A stretch of 32,149 nt of DNA from Oscillospiraceae bacterium (lineage in GTDB: Bacteria > Bacillota > Clostridia > Oscillospirales > Oscillospiraceae): assembly GCA_017502285.1 (NCBI GenBank), contig JAFVVH010000038.1:1-32149 (forward strand), written 5' to 3'. A model generated the notes under the pieces. The model ran no database searches and was not told the DNA's origin. It saw only the letters and a program-made list of their open reading frames with translations. Both the position numbers and the translations under genes were made by a program. Shown here piece after piece: positions 14,608 to 29,842 of this stretch. Numbering within the stretch: the first letter of the stretch is position 1; every line of letters starts with the position of its first letter.

Positions 14608-14719
14608 GATTTTTGGGGAACAAAATCGCATTCATGCCGTCTAAGACAGTGTCCGCGGATGAAATATGACACTCATATTGCGGAAATTTTACAGTTGTGT
14701 TACATATCGCAACAATATA

Positions 14720-14748
14720 TTGACGGTGAAATTAAGTTGCGGTATAGT
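14720..14748 (+). promoter_or_regulatory. Strong promoter of the S-layer gene
   Basis: TTGACG (14720-14725), a 17-nt spacer and TATAGT (14743-14748), in a notably AT-rich stretch. Predicted start is near 14755, so the transcript would begin almost at the hairpin at 14758-14789. Confidence 0.82.
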
Positions 14749-14757
14749 ACACGCAGA

Positions 14758-14789
14758 GACAAAGGAAAGGGTCTGCCTTTCCAATTGTC
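14758..14789 (+). promoter_or_regulatory. 5'-terminal hairpin of the S-layer mRNA
   Basis: GACAA (14758-14762) and GGAAAGG (14764-14770) pair with CCTTTCC (14776-14782) and TTGTC (14785-14789) around loop GTCTG, with a small internal loop between the two helices. It sits within a few nucleotides of the predicted transcript start and before AAGGAGG (14798-14804). A stem at the extreme 5' end is a known way of protecting long-lived mRNAs from 5'-dependent decay; that role is inferred here. Confidence 0.6.
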
Positions 14790-14813
14790 AAAATAAAAAG
14801 GAGGAATATCCAA

Positions 14814-17477
14814 ATGAGAAACCTGAAGCGCGCTCTGAGTCTGGCTCTGGCTTCCGTTATGCTGCTGGGCATGATGGTCGTTGGTTCCAGCGCTGCTGCC
14901 TTCGCTGACGAAGCTGACGTCGTCAACAAGGAAGCTGTTACCATTACCGCCGGTCTGGGCCTGTTCGCTGGCACCGACGGCAAGTTCAACCCCAAGGACA
15001 CTGTTACCCGTGCCCAGATGGCCACCATCATCGTGAAGATGCTGTATGGCTCCGAGATCAATGCTGATCAGTTCAAGGGTGCTGGCAGCTTCTCCGACAC
15101 CGTCGCCTTCGAGGGCGGCTGGGCCGAGGGCTACATCAACCTGTGCGCCAGCCTGAAGGTCGTCTCCGGCTACGGCGACGGCACCTTCAAGCCCGGCCAG
15201 GCTGTTACCACCGCTGAGGCCGTGACCATGATCATCAATGCCCTGAAGGTCGACGCCGGCGAGGGCACCTGGCCCATGACCGTTATGGCCGCTGCCGAGA
15301 CCATGAAGCTGTTCGAGGATCTGGCTGTTAAGCCCGGCACCAACGAGGCTCTGTCCCGTGACGCTCTGGCCGGTATCGTTCTGAACGGCCTGAACTACAG
15401 CCCCTCCGACACCAACACCTACACCTACACTACTCCCGCTGGCAAGGTCTTCGAGTTCTCCTCCCTGACCGCTGCTCTGCAGAGCGTGGGCATTGATAAC
15501 GCCGACAACATCGACATCAGCCCCGCTGAGGACACCCTGATGAAGACCGTGTTCGAGGCTACCACCGCCGATGCTTACATTGTTGGCAACCAGGCTACCG
15601 GTCTGGAGTACACCGAGCTGTCCAACGGCCTGTGGCTGAACCTGGAGACCGGTCTGGACATGATCGGCCACTACGTCAAGGCTTACTACGCTGAGGAGTA
15701 TGTTGACGAGGACGAGCCCGGCATCGCTTACTGCGTTGTCGAGAACGCCGAGTACATCAAGGTCGCTGAGGCTACCACCACCAAGAAGGAGTACACCGCT
15801 GCCTTCGGTTCCACCAAGGACCTGACCCCCGCTGAGGGTGCTACCCCCGTGTACTTCAACGGCAACTACGTTGTTGACGCTGAGGGCGAGTTCGAGTACA
15901 ACTACGGCACCTGGGCTGCTGATGCCGGTACCTACGTCATCGGTGATGACAACACCATCATCGCCTACATTGCTCCCGCTTCCATCTATGCTGACAAGGT
16001 CGAGTCCATCAACACCCGCGTTGGCAACGAGTCCATCACTCTGGTTGGCGCTCGCAAGATCAACAACAACGAGACCGAGGACAAGATCGTTGAGTACGAC
16101 GGCATTGCCGAGGAAGACTACGTGACCTACGTGAAGATCGGCACCGGCGCTGACGCCATCTACAACCTGACCAAGGCTGCTTCCGTCCAGGGTCAGATCA
16201 CCCGTACCTTCACCGACGCTGACGAGAACGTCTGCATCGTTGTGAACGGCACCACCTATGTGCAGAAGACCTTCGCTGACAATGATACCGGCCTGGCCAC
16301 CTCCATCACCGACTGGGAAGACACCTACACCGTGTACCTGACCGCCGAGGGCGAGTGGATCGGCATTGAGGGCGTGACCGGCGCTGCCAACGTGTCCGAC
16401 GTCTACTATGTTGTGGGCACCTACGTTGTTGACTCCACCAACAGCTACGGCATCCCCGATTATACCACCTATGCCCAGACCATCGACATGGAGGGCAAGG
16501 AGACCCAGATCATTGTTGACATCGATTCTCTGACCGACGCCGGCGACTTCGCCGAGGCCGATGAGACTGACCTGGATCCTGTTGATCCCGTAGTCGGCAA
16601 GACTGACGCTCAGGCTGGCCTGTACACCTTCGAGAAGGCTACCGGCAAGGCCGGCCGTTCCGGTGTCATGGTTGCTACTGCTCTGACTACCACCGTGGCT
16701 GATGAAGAGGGCGAGATCTACAACGCCACTCTGGATTACACCACTCTGGACAGCAACGCTTTCTCCAGCAAGACCACCGAGGTCGAGGTGGGCGGCGACT
16801 ACGCCTTCCTGACCGCCAACACCAAGTTCATCGTGATCGAGGACAACATGGGCTCCGCTCTGGAGACCGCTGTGACCACCGGCACCATCACCAAGACCCT
16901 GTCTAAGGACGCTGAGATGATCCTGAGCCTGGACGCTGACGACAACAAGATCGTTGAGGTCGTTGTTATCGTTACCTCCGACATGAACGTTTCCTCCGAG
17001 GACATCATCTACATCTCTGCTGATCAGGTTGCTGCTGCTGCCAACATCGGCGCTGGCAAGGTCGACTACTCCGTTTACATGGTGACCGACGGCTCCGTGA
17101 AGACCGGCTTCGTGGCTGACGGCGAGTACGAGGGTGGCTTCTACACCTTCGAGTACGATGCTACTGAGAGCGTCTATACTCTGTATCCCACTTCCGCTGA
17201 GAAGGTCGGTGTTGAGTATAAGGGCGTCATCAACGGTAAGCTGAGAACTGACGACATGCCTCAGGGCTACGATGTCGCCGAAGGCGCTTACATCGTTGAC
17301 ACTCGTGCCGCTAAGGAGATCGAGGACAGCGAGACCTGCGACTACGCCATCGAGACTCTGGCTGATCTGAAGGCTGCTGCCAAGGATCACACCATCACTC
17401 TGGACCTGTTCCTGAATGATGACGAGGAGATCGAGGCCATCTTTGTTAAGACCGTCGTGGAGAACGTTGAGGCCTAA
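14814..17477 (+). CDS. S-layer protein with N-terminal SLH domains
   Basis: An exported surface-layer type protein of 887 residues. The signal peptide has the basic MRNLKRAL start and a hydrophobic core, with likely cleavage after AAAFA (near residue 31). Three SLH-like repeats follow (about 38-85, 95-145 and 155-195; typical pieces are GLFAGTDGKFNPKDTVTRAQ and VVSGYGDGTFKPGQAVTTAE), which bind pyruvylated wall polysaccharide. The rest is a long acidic, Thr/Val-rich beta-type region with few cysteines and no recognisable enzyme motif. Codon use is strongly biased (GCT alanine, CTG, ATC, AAC, AAG) in contrast to its neighbours, which with its strong promoter and AAGGAGG site indicates very high expression. 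Confidence 0.92.
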   Translation: MRNLKRALSLALASVMLLGMMVVGSSAAAFADEADVVNKEAVTITAGLGLFAGTDGKFNPKDTVTRAQMATIIVKMLYGSEINADQFKGAGSFSDTVAFEGGWAEGYINLCASLKVVSGYGDGTFKPGQAVTTAEAVTMIINALKVDAGEGTWPMTVMAAAETMKLFEDLAVKPGTNEALSRDALAGIVLNGLNYSPSDTNTYTYTTPAGKVFEFSSLTAALQSVGIDNADNIDISPAEDTLMKTVFEATTADAYIVGNQATGLEYTELSNGLWLNLETGLDMIGHYVKAYYAEEYVDEDEPGIAYCVVENAEYIKVAEATTTKKEYTAAFGSTKDLTPAEGATPVYFNGNYVVDAEGEFEYNYGTWAADAGTYVIGDDNTIIAYIAPASIYADKVESINTRVGNESITLVGARKINNNETEDKIVEYDGIAEEDYVTYVKIGTGADAIYNLTKAASVQGQITRTFTDADENVCIVVNGTTYVQKTFADNDTGLATSITDWEDTYTVYLTAEGEWIGIEGVTGAANVSDVYYVVGTYVVDSTNSYGIPDYTTYAQTIDMEGKETQIIVDIDSLTDAGDFAEADETDLDPVDPVVGKTDAQAGLYTFEKATGKAGRSGVMVATALTTTVADEEGEIYNATLDYTTLDSNAFSSKTTEVEVGGDYAFLTANTKFIVIEDNMGSALETAVTTGTITKTLSKDAEMILSLDADDNKIVEVVVIVTSDMNVSSEDIIYISADQVAAAANIGAGKVDYSVYMVTDGSVKTGFVADGEYEGGFYTFEYDATESVYTLYPTSAEKVGVEYKGVINGKLRTDDMPQGYDVAEGAYIVDTRAAKEIEDSETCDYAIETLADLKAAAKDHTITLDLFLNDDEEIEAIFVKTVVENVEA

Positions 17478-17521
17478 TCTCAACCTCTGTTGATGGGATC
17501 AAAAACTTAACACAATAAGTT

Positions 17522-25205: not shown

Positions 25206-25808
25206 TCACATTTCACGGCGGCCCTCAAGGGCACGCATAAGGGTGGCATCGTCGGCAAATTCCAGATGACTGCCCACCGGGATGCCGTAGGCAAGGCGGG
25301 TGACCTTGACCCCGAAGTTCTTAAGCAGTCGGGACAGGTACATGGCGGTGGCTTCGCCCTCCGTATCCGGGTTGGTGGCCATGATAACCTCGCGGATAGT
25401 GCCGGCGGCCACGCGCTCCACCAGCGACTTGATGTGCAGGTCGTCGGGGCCTACGTGGTTCATAGGGGAAATGACACCGTGGAGCACATGGTACAGACCG
25501 TTATACTCTCGGGAACGTTCCATAGCCACCACATCTTTGGGGTCAGCCACCACGCAAACCACAGAGGCATCTCTGCGCTGGCTGGCGCAGATGGAACAGG
25601 GGCCGTCCCCCTGTGTCAGATTCTGGCACACGGGGCAGCAGTGGATGGCCCGCTTGGCATCCAGAATAGCCTGGGCGAACTTGGCCGCGTCCTCCTCAGA
25701 CAGGGACAGTACATGGAAGGCCAGCCGCTGGGCGGACTTGGTGCCCACACCGGGCAGGCGGGCAAATTGCTCGGTCAGCGTTTCAAGAGCGGGGGGAAAG
25801 TACTGCAT
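25206..25808 (-). CDS. recR: Recombination mediator protein RecR
   Basis: RecR works with RecO (and RecF) to load RecA at single-stranded gaps. The 200 residues are standard: an N-terminal helix-hairpin-helix (FARLPGVGTKSAQRLAFH), a zinc finger with C58, C61, C71 and C74 (CPVC and CSIC pairs), and a Toprim domain (VCVVADPKDVVAMERS; NPDTEGEATAMYL). The frame is open further upstream, but ATG 25808 has GGGAGG 8 nt before it and gives the canonical start. It lies 25 bp after rpe with no terminator between, and not beside dnaX-ybaB as in many bacteria. Confidence 0.96.
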   Translation of the reverse strand: MQYFPPALETLTEQFARLPGVGTKSAQRLAFHVLSLSEEDAAKFAQAILDAKRAIHCCPVCQNLTQGDGPCSICASQRRDASVVCVVADPKDVVAMERSREYNGLYHVLHGVISPMNHVGPDDLHIKSLVERVAAGTIREVIMATNPDTEGEATAMYLSRLLKNFGVKVTRLAYGIPVGSHLEFADDATLMRALEGRREM

Positions 25809-25833
25809 GACAAAAACCTCCCGTAGAGTAGAA

Positions 25834-26478
25834 TCAGCCTCGCAGAGTCTGGATGGCGGCGGGGATGTCTTCCGCGCCGTACACGGCAGAGCCGGCGACC
25901 AGCACGTTTGCGCCCGCCTCAATGACCAGCGGGGCGGTTTTGGGTGCGATGCCGCCGTCCACCTCCAGCTCACAGGCGGGGTTGTACTTGTTAATGAGCG
26001 CACGTACCTCTCGGATGGTATCAAGCTGTTCGGGCATAAAGGCCTGACCACCGAAACCGGGCTCCACCGTCATCACCAGTACCAGATCCAGCTGCTCAAT
26101 GTAGGGCAGGACGGCCTTGGGGGAGGTGATGGGGCGCAGGGCCACGGCCTTTTTTACCTTGCACTCGTCCATGATGCGCAGAGCCTCGGCAATGCGGGTG
26201 GGATGATCAGCCTCCAGATGAATGGACAGCAGATCGGCACCGGCCTTGGCGAACTGCTCCACGTAGCGCACAGGCTTTTCGATCATCAGATGTACGTCCA
26301 GAAACATGTCCGTGCACTTGCGCAGAGACTGCACCACGGGGATACCGATGGACATGTTGGGGACGAAGGCACCGTCCATCACGTCCACATGGACATAGTC
26401 GGCGGTGGCAATTTTCTTTACATCCCGCTCCAGATTGGCGAAGTCAGCAGAAAGAATGGAAGGGGCAATTTTGATCAT
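25834..26478 (-). CDS. rpe: Ribulose-phosphate 3-epimerase
   Basis: Interconverts ribulose 5-phosphate and xylulose 5-phosphate in the pentose phosphate pathway. The 214 residues form a TIM barrel with the family's metal and catalytic residues: IAPSILSADF at the start, HVDVMDG (H30, D32, D35), DVHLM (H63), MTVEPGFGGQ and EVDGGI. GAAAGGAACG precedes ATG 26478. It is followed by recR at 25 bp. Upstream is a 226-bp GC-rich segment and then the threonine ammonia-lyase gene; no promoter was recognised in that segment, so transcription may come from the ammonia-lyase promoter. Confidence 0.96.
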   Translation of the reverse strand: MIKIAPSILSADFANLERDVKKIATADYVHVDVMDGAFVPNMSIGIPVVQSLRKCTDMFLDVHLMIEKPVRYVEQFAKAGADLLSIHLEADHPTRIAEALRIMDECKVKKAVALRPITSPKAVLPYIEQLDLVLVMTVEPGFGGQAFMPEQLDTIREVRALINKYNPACELEVDGGIAPKTAPLVIEAGANVLVAGSAVYGAEDIPAAIQTLRG

Positions 26479-26704
26479 AGGTATCGTTCCTTTCAGTAGC
26501 GGACAGGTCCGCCGGTATATGTGTCGGGGGACAGCGGCGCGGCATAGGATACAGCACGCGGAAAGATGGGGCGCCCCAGTGTGGCGCCGAAGCCGGGCTG
26601 CTCCAGGTCATGTCCCGGACCGCCCTGCGGCCCGGTGTTTCCGGCCGCCTGCCGCGTTTGAGATACCCGGTGGCCGGGGCGCTTGCTTCGGCCTCCGGGA
26701 GGAA
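26479..26704 (-). other. GC-rich structured intergenic segment, no gene recognised
   Basis: Three short GC-rich hairpins occur in a row: 26570-26575 with 26583-26588 (6 bp), 26615-26623 with 26627-26635 (two 4-bp helices around one mismatch), and 26666-26676 with 26689-26699 (two 5-bp helices around a T-T mismatch). None has a T run, so they do not look like terminators. Two minus-strand frames are open through most of it, but none has an ATG, GTG or TTG with a ribosome site that would give a credible gene. It could be a small structured RNA or processed leader of rpe; no known RNA family was recognised. Confidence 0.4.
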
Positions 26705-26782
26705 TCAGGAGGGACCGTGCTCCTGAGTCAATACCATATGGGCCTGATAACCGGCCTGATGCATGGCATCCAGAATGGCCTG
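26705..26782 (-). pseudogene. Severed C-terminal end of the threonine ammonia-lyase ACT domain
   Basis: Directly after the TAG at 26783-26785 the same reading frame continues for 25 sense codons to TGA (26705-26707). The translation begins QAILDAMHQAGYQ and goes on to AHMVLTQEHGPS, which is how the last helix and strand of the ACT domain look in intact relatives. Its survival without further damage implies that the stop is recent, is read through, or is a sequencing error. Confidence 0.8.
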
Positions 26783-27928
26783 CTAGTGCTCGTGGCCAAA
26801 GGCCTCCAGCGTTACCTTCAACTCCACACCGGACTGGCGGTTGATGTTGACGAACTGGTTGTGGTCCAGCTTGATGATATTTCCATTCTGTTTGGCTACG
26901 ATCTCGGCCACCCGCAGCAACTCGCCGGGGCGGTCGGGCAGTTGAACGGAGAAGGTGAAGATGCGGCCGCGGTTGATCAGACCATGCTGCACCAGAGAGG
27001 ACATGGTGATCACATCCATGTTGCCGCCGGACAGCACGCTGACCACATTTTGGTCTTTGCAGTCCAAATGGCGCAGGGCGGCTACAGTGAGCAGACCGGC
27101 ATTTTCCACCACCATCTTGTGTTTTTCCATCACGTCCAGAAATGCGTCCACCAACTCGCTGTCATCGATGGTGATAATATCGTCCACATTGGTTTGGATA
27201 TAGGGGAATACCAGATCGCCCGGGGTTTTGACAGCAACGCCGTCGGCGATGGTGGATACATTGGGCAGGGTAACCACGTGACCGGCTTCCAGGCTGGCTT
27301 TCATGGAGGCCGCGCCGGTGGGCTCTACGCCGATGACCTTCACGTTGGGATTGAGCAACTTTGCCAGGGTGGACACGCCTGCGGCAAGTCCGCCGCCGCC
27401 GATGGGCACAAGGATCACATCTACATCGGGCAGGGACTGAAAGATCTCGTAGGCAATGGTGCCCTGACCCGTAGCCACATCCAGATCGTTAAAGGGAGGA
27501 ATGTAGGTCAGGCCTTCGTCTTTGGACAACTGCATGGCCTTGGCTGCGGCATCGTCAAAGGTCTCGCCATGCAGCACAACGGTAGCGCCGTAATCCTTGG
27601 TGTTGTTCACCTTGACCAGCGGAGTGGTGGTGGGCATAACGATGGTGGCACGTACCCCCGCGGCTTGAGCGGCATAGGCCACGCCCTGAGCGTGGTTGCC
27701 CGCAGAGGCGGTGATGAGGCCGCGCTGCTTGTCCTCGTCAGACATGGTGCTGATCTTATAATAAGCGCCCCGGATCTTGTAGGCGCCGGTGATCTGCATG
27801 TTTTCGGGTTTCAGGTATACGTTGTTTCCGCAGTTGCGGGACAGGGCGGGAGAGTGGATCAGATTGGTTTCCAGGATCACACCCTGCAACACGCTGCGGG
27901 CGGCCTTGAACCGGTCGAGGGTCATCAT
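26783..27928 (-). CDS. Threonine ammonia-lyase, ACT domain interrupted by an in-frame TAG
   Basis: PLP-dependent enzyme that deaminates threonine to 2-oxobutanoate, for isoleucine synthesis or threonine catabolism. As read it has 381 residues. The catalytic domain is complete: PLP lysine K51 in TGAYKIRGA, the SAGNHAQGVAYAA phosphate-side motif and the PIGGGGLAAGVS glycine loop. The C-terminal ACT domain begins at FSVQLPDRPGELLRVAEI but stops at TAG (26783-26785) right after GHEH. Suppressing that codon would give 407 residues, the usual length of the one-ACT class. ATG 27926-27928 is chosen because AAAAAAGGAG lies 8 nt upstream. Core activity may persist with altered regulation. Confidence 0.9.
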   Translation of the reverse strand: MMTLDRFKAARSVLQGVILETNLIHSPALSRNCGNNVYLKPENMQITGAYKIRGAYYKISTMSDEDKQRGLITASAGNHAQGVAYAAQAAGVRATIVMPTTTPLVKVNNTKDYGATVVLHGETFDDAAAKAMQLSKDEGLTYIPPFNDLDVATGQGTIAYEIFQSLPDVDVILVPIGGGGLAAGVSTLAKLLNPNVKVIGVEPTGAASMKASLEAGHVVTLPNVSTIADGVAVKTPGDLVFPYIQTNVDDIITIDDSELVDAFLDVMEKHKMVVENAGLLTVAALRHLDCKDQNVVSVLSGGNMDVITMSSLVQHGLINRGRIFTFSVQLPDRPGELLRVAEIVAKQNGNIIKLDHNQFVNINRQSGVELKVTLEAFGHEH

Positions 27929-27960
27929 GGGGAAAACTCCTTTTTTGGACATATAACGAA

Positions 27961-27989
27961 ATCATACGCTCGGTGCTGGAGAAAGTCAA
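27961..27989 (-). promoter_or_regulatory. Promoter of the threonine ammonia-lyase gene
   Basis: On the minus strand, TTGACT (27984-27989), a 17-nt spacer and TATGAT (27961-27966). The -35 overlaps the stop codon of the upstream sulfatase gene. Confidence 0.75.
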
Positions 27990-29842
27990 GATTTTCCCTG
28001 TGTATCAGGGCGTTGCGCGGAATAGTTTTTTCCGAACACCCGGTCATAGGTGATGTGCTCCATCGCCTTTGTGAAGGGGGCGATGGAATCTGTGACTTCC
28101 ATGCCAAGACGCACGTTGTAGATTGGGGTAACGGAATGAAAATCCAGCAGCAGATTCATATAAGGGGTGCGGCCAAAGCCGGTGGACATGGCCACTGCGT
28201 TGAGCAGGTTATAATCGGAAATGCGGTTTTCGGTGTTGGACGCAAACAATCCCTTGTCCAAGGTGCGGTTGGAATAAATGAGGAAGGGGGTGGCATACAT
28301 GGTCAGCAGTTCTTCCTGTGTCATACCGTCCCAGGAGTTGAACAGGCCGCTTTCGTTATAGGCCAGATAGTTGGAGCCCAGGGTGGGCATGTGGTCACCG
28401 AAAAAGACCAGCACCGTGGGCCGTTCCCGCTTGTCGATCCACTTGACCAGATCGCCCAGCATCTTGTCCGCGTCGTAAAGTCCCTGAGTGTAGGTGGTCA
28501 GCGCGGTGAGAGCAGGCTCAGACAGGCGGTCGGAACTCACATCGATCTGCATCAAGCTGGGGTCAATGCCCTCGTAGGGCTGGTGGTTCTGCATGGTGAT
28601 GGCGAACAGGAAGGTGGGCTGAGTGGCTTCGTCCATGCACTTTTGGATGGCACGCGTGGTGCTCTCATCGGTAACATAGCCGCGCTTGTACTCGGCATAC
28701 ACCATCTGGGTCATCTCGTCCTGACCGTAGAACTGGTCAAAGCCGATATGCCCGTAAGCGTTGTCCCGGGAATAGAATTTTCTGTTGTAGGGGTGGATGG
28801 CGATGGTGCTGTACCCTGCGTCCCGATAGTTGGATACATAGGAGGAGATGGGGTGGGACAGATAGCGGTACGGGGTGGGCACACTGGGGATATAGTCGCA
28901 GGTCAACCCTGTGAGGATGCCAAATTCCGGCCGCACCGTGCCGCCGCCGATGGCGGTGGTATACAGGCTTCCGCTGTAACAGCGCTTGCTTTTGCGAATA
29001 CGGTCATAATTCTTTAACGGATTTTCCGAAAAGGTCACACCATCCAGAATGCGCGCGTCAAAAAAGCTTTCACTGAGGATGACCACAACATCATACTGCG
29101 GGGCATTTTCTGCGGCGGGGGTGGCTTGATAACCGTCCAGAATGTCCTCGATGGTCTGACGGGAATAGCCCTGGGGCTCCTGTACGTTGAGGCTGAGCAG
29201 ATTGACGGTAAACGCACCCACAAAGCCGTTGGCGTTGTAATTGGAGCTTTGCAGGGCGGAGTCAAACAGGGACATGCCGAATTTGTTGAGCAGGACATCT
29301 GCTTTGTCAATGTTGGAACAGGGCAGCCACATGCACACAATCAGTGCGGCAGCTGCGGGCAGCCGGAGCTTCCAGCTCAGAGGAAGGGCAATGCCCATAA
29401 GGGCCAGAAAGACGACCCAAAGGACCAGTACCGCCCCGCCAAGCCAAAAGGGGACGGGCAGGTCTCCGCTGATGAAGCTGGTCAATTCCCCGGCATTGGA
29501 CAGCATGAGGATGTCCTGGGGCATGAAGTGGTCGCCGTTGAGGGCGGCTTTGGTAAAGTTCACATAGGAGCAAATCAGGCTGAGTGCTCCCAGCAGTCCC
29601 ATGGCCACTGCGGCCCGGCGAAAAATCAGCAGGGCCAGCACAGCCAGCAGAGCGACCACCAGCACTTCGAAAAGCAGGGCGCGGGGGAAATTCTGCGCAA
29701 ACTGAACCACGTAGGACACGTGTCCACCAAAGTTCATATAATCCATGAGCAGCAGGCAGGCGAGGGGGAAGAATGGCAGCGTGAGCCATGCCAGCACCCG
29801 CAGGGGGCGGCAGGAACGCAATATTTGAATGGGTCTTGTCAT
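27986..29842 (-). CDS. LTA synthase-type membrane sulfatase (glycerol phosphotransferase family)
   Basis: A polytopic membrane protein with an extracellular alkaline-phosphatase/sulfatase-fold domain, as in lipoteichoic acid synthases, which transfer glycerol phosphate from phosphatidylglycerol. The 618 residues have about five membrane helices in the first 190, then the catalytic domain from about 260: VVILSESFFD (metal-binding Glu), GGGTVRPEFGILTG (candidate catalytic Thr), and VFFGDHMP (metal-binding Asp-His). ATG 29842 is chosen because GGAGGG lies 6 nt upstream; the frame extends 20 codons further. It may make a wall or lipid-linked polymer rather than classical LTA. A TATAAT-like -10 occurs on the minus strand at 29879-29884 without a good -35. 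Confidence 0.88.
   Translation of the reverse strand: MTRPIQILRSCRPLRVLAWLTLPFFPLACLLLMDYMNFGGHVSYVVQFAQNFPRALLFEVLVVALLAVLALLIFRRAAVAMGLLGALSLICSYVNFTKAALNGDHFMPQDILMLSNAGELTSFISGDLPVPFWLGGAVLVLWVVFLALMGIALPLSWKLRLPAAAALIVCMWLPCSNIDKADVLLNKFGMSLFDSALQSSNYNANGFVGAFTVNLLSLNVQEPQGYSRQTIEDILDGYQATPAAENAPQYDVVVILSESFFDARILDGVTFSENPLKNYDRIRKSKRCYSGSLYTTAIGGGTVRPEFGILTGLTCDYIPSVPTPYRYLSHPISSYVSNYRDAGYSTIAIHPYNRKFYSRDNAYGHIGFDQFYGQDEMTQMVYAEYKRGYVTDESTTRAIQKCMDEATQPTFLFAITMQNHQPYEGIDPSLMQIDVSSDRLSEPALTALTTYTQGLYDADKMLGDLVKWIDKRERPTVLVFFGDHMPTLGSNYLAYNESGLFNSWDGMTQEELLTMYATPFLIYSNRTLDKGLFASNTENRISDYNLLNAVAMSTGFGRTPYMNLLLDFHSVTPIYNVRLGMEVTDSIAPFTKAMEHITYDRVFGKNYSAQRPDTQGKS

Follow-up and report, generated by a model that had tools for sequence, protein, structure and literature searches.

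In-frame stop codons followed by sequence that still resembles the remainder of a protein family are a known kind of observation, produced by ordinary nonsense alleles and by consensus errors in draft assemblies. TAG is also recoded in code-15 phages, and pyrrolysine decoding likewise reads TAG. The threonine ammonia-lyase gene described here resembles the ordinary cases in being seen in a single assembly, in carrying a TAG one base from the commonest codon at the site, in its family-like downstream sequence, and in the normal use of TAG as a terminator elsewhere. Nothing distinguishes it from these cases, and the near-C-terminal position of the stop spares the catalytic domain. With the phage and pyrrolysine systems it shares an in-frame TAG beyond which the coding sequence is conserved. 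However, unlike in those systems, RF1 is kept, other genes end on TAG, the TAG itself is unconserved, and, within an assembly that is 78% complete, no amber-reading tRNA was found and PylS stays below its cut-off. We regard the stop as most likely ordinary in kind, either a nonsense mutation of recent date or an error introduced by the reads or the assembly. Among bacteria, the reassignments known before the screen of PMC8629427 all affect UGA, and that screen added arginine codons (PMC8629427).

The gene lies on the minus strand of a 32,149-nucleotide window, which is the whole stretch of DNA analyzed and constitutes contig 36 of a draft assembly of 1,485,919 bases in 83 contigs, which its make-up suggests is a metagenome-assembled genome of an Oscillospiraceae-type bacterium. 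As assembled, this threonine ammonia-lyase gene (TIGR01127) spans 26783..27952 and comprises, before its TAG, 389 codons when counted from the first ATG or 381 when counted from the one at 27928. A prior reading of the letters without database searches (the sequence-only reading) had reported a TAG at 26783-26785 and then 25 codons to a TGA at 26705, and exactly this arrangement is present. The amber codon, codon 382 (26783..26785), directly follows ...EAFGHEH, and beyond it 25 sense codons (26708..26782, minus strand), QAILDAMHQAGYQAHMVLTQEHGPS, run in frame to a TGA at 26705-26707, which comparison with homologues places near the end position of the relatives. The extent proposed by that reading, 26705..27928, holds for the stop and the frame and not for the start, since the longest open reading frame begins at 27952 and 27928 is an internal in-frame ATG. 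Just upstream of the gene is a promoter-like TTGACT-17-TATGAT (27961..27989, minus strand), identified by consensus match only; three promoter-like sites were found within 25800-28100, against a mean of 1.0 in shuffled sequences. The neighboring genes are open, namely rpe (ribulose-phosphate 3-epimerase, named by sequence; 25834..26478, minus strand), which is intact and next downstream, recR, also downstream, and the gene for a sulfatase-domain protein upstream. A 6.6-kb block around the gene is collinear with a contig of the closest relative among the matches listed, at 79% nucleotide identity. A codon-usage gene caller, trained on the genes of the window with the threonine ammonia-lyase gene included, called 23 genes in the window, of which this one alone ends on TAG. 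The other 22 use TAA (11) or TGA (11), in agreement with the earlier observation that no other annotated gene ends in TAG.

To place the stop in the context of the family, we compared 110 loci, consisting of the best 30 (including that of the window) from 60 genomes and the best 80 of 580 confirmed public contigs. They comprise 101 distinct sequences, 100 besides the window, of which 29 are from the same genus; full, partial, or split matches in the same-genus genomes G004, G009, G018, G030, and G035, together with more distant matches, stand outside this count. At codon 382 the 100 distinct homologues among the matches listed have lysine in 99 cases (AAG in 83 and AAA in 16) and arginine in one (AGG), the latter in the closest relative among those listed, which is 94% identical. 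Within the same genus the counts are 26 AAG, 2 AAA, and 1 AGG (n=29, among the matches listed). The TAG in the window is thus one base away from AAG, the commonest codon of the relatives. Counted with the site codon, the tail is 22 to 26 codons long in the listed homologues, with 25 codons in 63 of the 100 and one copy cut by a contig end. The same stretch is translated in all 100 distinct homologues among the matches listed, which bears out the suggestion that the tail is the normal C-terminal end of the protein, and none of them ends at GHEH, an outcome that the earlier reading had named as one that would speak against an abnormal end. Their own terminators are TGA (54), TAA (38), and TAG (7), with one open. 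As TAG closes seven of these copies, three of them from the same genus, it is a proper terminator of the threonine ammonia-lyase gene in those relatives. In a wider scan of 300 genomes of the family, 81 gave a match at E ≤ 1e-120, the genome of the window included. A stop before the natural end was found in none of the other 80, which partly overlap the 100-homologue set and include two partial matches short of the site. Besides the window itself, the scan flagged a stop in G246 and G237 alone, and in both the TGA concerned proved to be the natural gene end. The end of the gene at TAG is abnormal for the family.

The truncated protein scores 430.1 bits against TIGR01127 (ilvA_1Cterm), a family with one C-terminal ACT-type domain, which is above the cut-off of 378.75 and compares with 437.6 bits for the full protein of the closest relative among the matches listed. 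Its match extends to position 363 of the 380 in the profile, versus 377 of 380 in that relative, and the C-terminal domain stops short of the profile end. The PALP domain is complete (profile positions 4-295 of 295; 275.9 bits); its match through the end of the profile agrees with the suggestion that the catalytic core is spared. With the Pfam ACT model, the truncated protein and two intact relatives all stay under the cut-off of 27 (20.2, 22.4, and 23.9 bits). In terms of the ACT topology, the lost end would correspond to the second (last) helix and the last strand. The genome yielded a single full copy of the gene; the other match there is weak and partial. Both ilvC and ilvD are present, so the putative threonine ammonia-lyase probably serves the isoleucine route. 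Threonine dehydratases bearing ACT-like subdomains are described in the introduction of PMC3901761 as being under isoleucine and valine control. The results of that work further connect both the stability and the specific activity of the enzymes with their ACT-like subdomains, associate ACT with higher activity, and describe single-ACT enzymes as more stable to heat and pH than those with none or two (PMC3901761). Against this background, loss of effector control, of stability, or of both would be a plausible outcome of the truncation. A literature search for threonine dehydratases with a truncated ACT domain found none, and we claim no novelty for this type of truncation.

In this genome TAG is a rare but genuine terminator. 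Among 247 genes called in 312 kb (21% of the genome), 136 end on TAA, 104 on TGA, and 7 on TAG. Of these seven, the genes for MnmA, RsmG, ComEC, and YraN match their family models to or near the model ends, and a fifth, which we take to be GDSL-esterase-like, has no NCBIfam match and is followed by the start of a new gene in the same frame. Five of the seven therefore stop where a gene of that kind would; the other two calls are an apparent antisense shadow ORF and a polysaccharide deacetylase gene without its 3' end. TAG is likewise rare in a complete member of the genus (28 of 585 genes). An alternative count from longest ORFs, in which 36 of 249 ended on TAG, was discarded in favor of the codon-usage caller because the longest-ORF caller takes antisense shadow ORFs, one of which even displaces the threonine ammonia-lyase gene in the window. 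In-frame TAG codons, a count of which the sequence-only reading had called for, were looked for in 30 orthologous pairs that align over 9,491 residues, with 344 kb of this genome set against 800 kb from the complete genus member. The threonine ammonia-lyase TAG is the sole convincing case. A second TAG was flagged as an in-gene stop (L153, query codon 9) and was rejected, as it precedes the likely true start when judged by eye; a smaller comparison of 19 pairs had flagged the same two codons. Of the 24 pairs whose gene end is conserved, this genome closes 13 with TGA, 11 with TAA, and none with TAG, against a single TAG in the complete relative. The absence of TAG among these 24 ends fits its rarity and is compatible with more than rarity, too.

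The 25-codon tail shows no clear decay and retains family-like sequence to a greater extent than expected by chance. Against a leave-one-out family profile it scores 38.5 bits, the 37th lowest of 100 with a median of 42.1; each unconstrained substitution introduced in simulation lowers the score by about 3 bits. The power of this argument is limited, because the tail varies across the group and an intact member of the same genus reaches only 25.7 bits in the same test, so that a few unconstrained changes would escape notice. The codon usage of the tail is gene-like (+10.0 bits over 25 codons, with a gene median of 0.46 per codon), which by itself is weak evidence because positive scores are also obtained for about one-quarter of the sequences that follow ordinary stops (0.25 of 115 for TAA and 0.23 of 73 for TGA). 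In terms of substitution rates, the dN of the tail is 0.20 to the closest relative among the matches listed and 0.34-0.86 across eight other pairs, and dN/dS ranges from about 0.2 to 1 in those of the nine pairs for which dS could be computed. We preferred the profile score over the comparison of rates because every one of the nine pairs shows a variable tail and synonymous changes have almost reached saturation. The lack of clear decay implies that the stop either arose late on the branch or is absent from the organism altogether.

Of the explanations offered in the sequence-only reading, a nonsense mutation and a sequencing error both stand, whereas read-through or recoding of TAG is unsupported: TAG ends normal genes, RF1 is intact (508.7 bits versus a cut-off of 423.25), and neither an amber-reading tRNA nor a PylS above cut-off was recovered from the assembled part of the genome. 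The searches for a suppressor tRNA and for pylS that it had suggested were run on the 78%-complete genome. None of its 31 tRNA matches has a CUA anticodon with which to read UAG, and the best PylS match in the profile search reached 23.1 bits against a cut-off of 178.15; the PylS model gave matches in 13 of 14 control genomes and exceeded the cut-off in only one. The weight of these negatives is limited because the genome is only 78% complete and other tRNAs are missing too, the ARAGORN lists being without tRNAs for Trp, Phe, Ile, and Asn. An amber suppressor or pyrrolysine-type read-through, under which the TAG would be partly translated to yield a short unregulated and a long regulated enzyme, would accommodate the family-like tail and the rarity of TAG as a terminator in called genes and conserved-end orthologues alike, and the suppressor tRNA could be among the missing parts. 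Yet TAG is similarly rare in the complete genus member and ends most of the genes that carry it in the expected place, and the lack of a stop at the site in all 100 distinct relatives listed leaves no conserved recoding signal. We consider such read-through very improbable, and it would be just as surprising if a suppressor in the unassembled fifth of the genome let read-through set the ratio of a short feedback-insensitive to a long regulated enzyme. There is no ground for a new genetic code here. Even less credible is an adaptive truncation, in which loss of the ACT end would have been selected for freeing the enzyme from end-product control, for example in threonine catabolism. The conservation of the rest of the protein (dN 0.032 versus the closest listed relative) agrees with this, as do the isoleucine and valine control of ACT-bearing enzymes and the link of ACT to stability and activity (PMC3901761). 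On the other hand, one case alone provides no evidence of selection, the absence of the truncation from all 100 listed homologues means that there is no parallelism, and, given that ACT subdomains go with higher activity and, in single-ACT enzymes, with higher stability (PMC3901761), a partial ACT domain could equally be harmful.

The choice thus falls between the two ordinary sources, and of these we somewhat favor, by judgement rather than computation, a real and recent nonsense allele. Under this proposal, one codon in the C-terminal ACT region of the sole full copy found would read TAG in place of a lysine codon, a change that would be located in the sequenced strain itself or in its assembly. 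With TAG an ordinary stop in the lineage, translation would end at codon 382, and the product would keep its PLP catalytic domain entire, along with most of the ACT region, and would lack the last residues (22-26 in relatives). Because the sequence after the stop is still family-like, the change would be recent relative to the species split, and its effect would probably be altered effector control or stability with catalysis kept. If instead the stop is an error that arose in the reads, the assembly, or the binning, the organism itself carries a sense codon at this site and makes a full-length enzyme, and the T is a wrong or minority-strain base. Such an error would suit a stop seen in 1 of 101 distinct sequences among the matches listed, and a tail that lacks clear decay and has gene-like codon usage is what is expected if it is translated. 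The assembly is also fragmented (83 contigs, 78% complete) and contains at least one other gene with a lost end, at L144, and the contig name of the closest listed relative gives a coverage of 1.87, which would lend credence to low-coverage errors should the window stem from a survey of that kind. Against an error, only 25 codons separate the stop from the end of the protein, a stretch that a random error would hit with a chance of about 6% (25 of about 406 codons) and in which a real nonsense change would be best tolerated. Moreover, the only other flag in the 30 orthologous pairs was the TAG before a likely gene start, which indicates that the error rate is not visibly high. On balance, we lean modestly toward the TAG base being real, while error is a serious contender to which we assign the smaller likelihood. 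More generally, when family-like sequence continues past an in-frame stop in a draft assembly, the stop should be treated as a recent nonsense change or an error until reads decide. If real, the nonsense allele would offer a natural test of the role of the end of the single ACT domain in a medium-form threonine ammonia-lyase.

Between the threonine ammonia-lyase gene and rpe, directly upstream of the latter, lies a conserved, covarying RNA-like element (26538-26702, minus strand). In 82 of the 110 loci among the matches listed, a count that includes duplicates and short loci, rpe occurs within 600 nt downstream of the threonine ammonia-lyase gene, and 68 of 73 distinct intergenic stretches among these matches keep CCTATG or CTTATG. 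For 36 sequences chosen from the intergenic stretches, that of the window included, the predicted structure comprises 15 pairs, and in 10 of these both sides have changed while the pairing is kept. Of the 15 pairs, 11 form a hairpin and the other four an almost invariant GCGG/CCGC contact, after which comes AUCYUAUG with little variation. Two results speak against a structured RNA: RNAalifold gives a small covariation term (-0.89), and the element in the window folds only modestly better than shuffled sequences (z of -2.01, with 6 of 200 folding as well). In the window and six relatives, no Rfam 15 family reached its gathering score, and at E ≤ 5 there were only chance-level matches; a literature search found nothing. 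A search model built from 24 sequences, with 12 pairs that all fall in the hairpin, detected one copy in this genome. Under strict filters, 10 of the 197 genomes searched from the order gave a match, the present genome among them (three in the training set and seven outside it), with 187 lacking one. All 10 matches are directly upstream of rpe, and in nine of them threonine ammonia-lyase is on the other side, the tenth being flanked by a gene that appears argS-like by eye. As the element is next to rpe in all 10 and once occurs without threonine ammonia-lyase, it seems to be associated with rpe rather than with the enzyme, and it is a candidate for an unlisted leader RNA or small RNA. This element may matter more than the truncated enzyme.

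Some further oddities were seen in the window and elsewhere in the genome. At L144 5681-6301 (G000:C13) of the same genome, a PdaB-like polysaccharide deacetylase, below the cut-off of TIGR02764, stops resembling its family about 60 positions short of the profile end and continues into AT-rich sequence; this is a second broken gene in the assembly, perhaps through an insertion or a misjoin. The window also encodes an SLH-domain surface protein of 887 residues (14814-17477, plus strand), opposite which a reading frame of 927 codons stays open on the antisense strand (ORF 14700-17483, minus strand), and a similar-looking long ORF occurs at L147 1214-2935. Both of these long ORFs look like codon-usage shadows of the kind that mislead longest-ORF callers.
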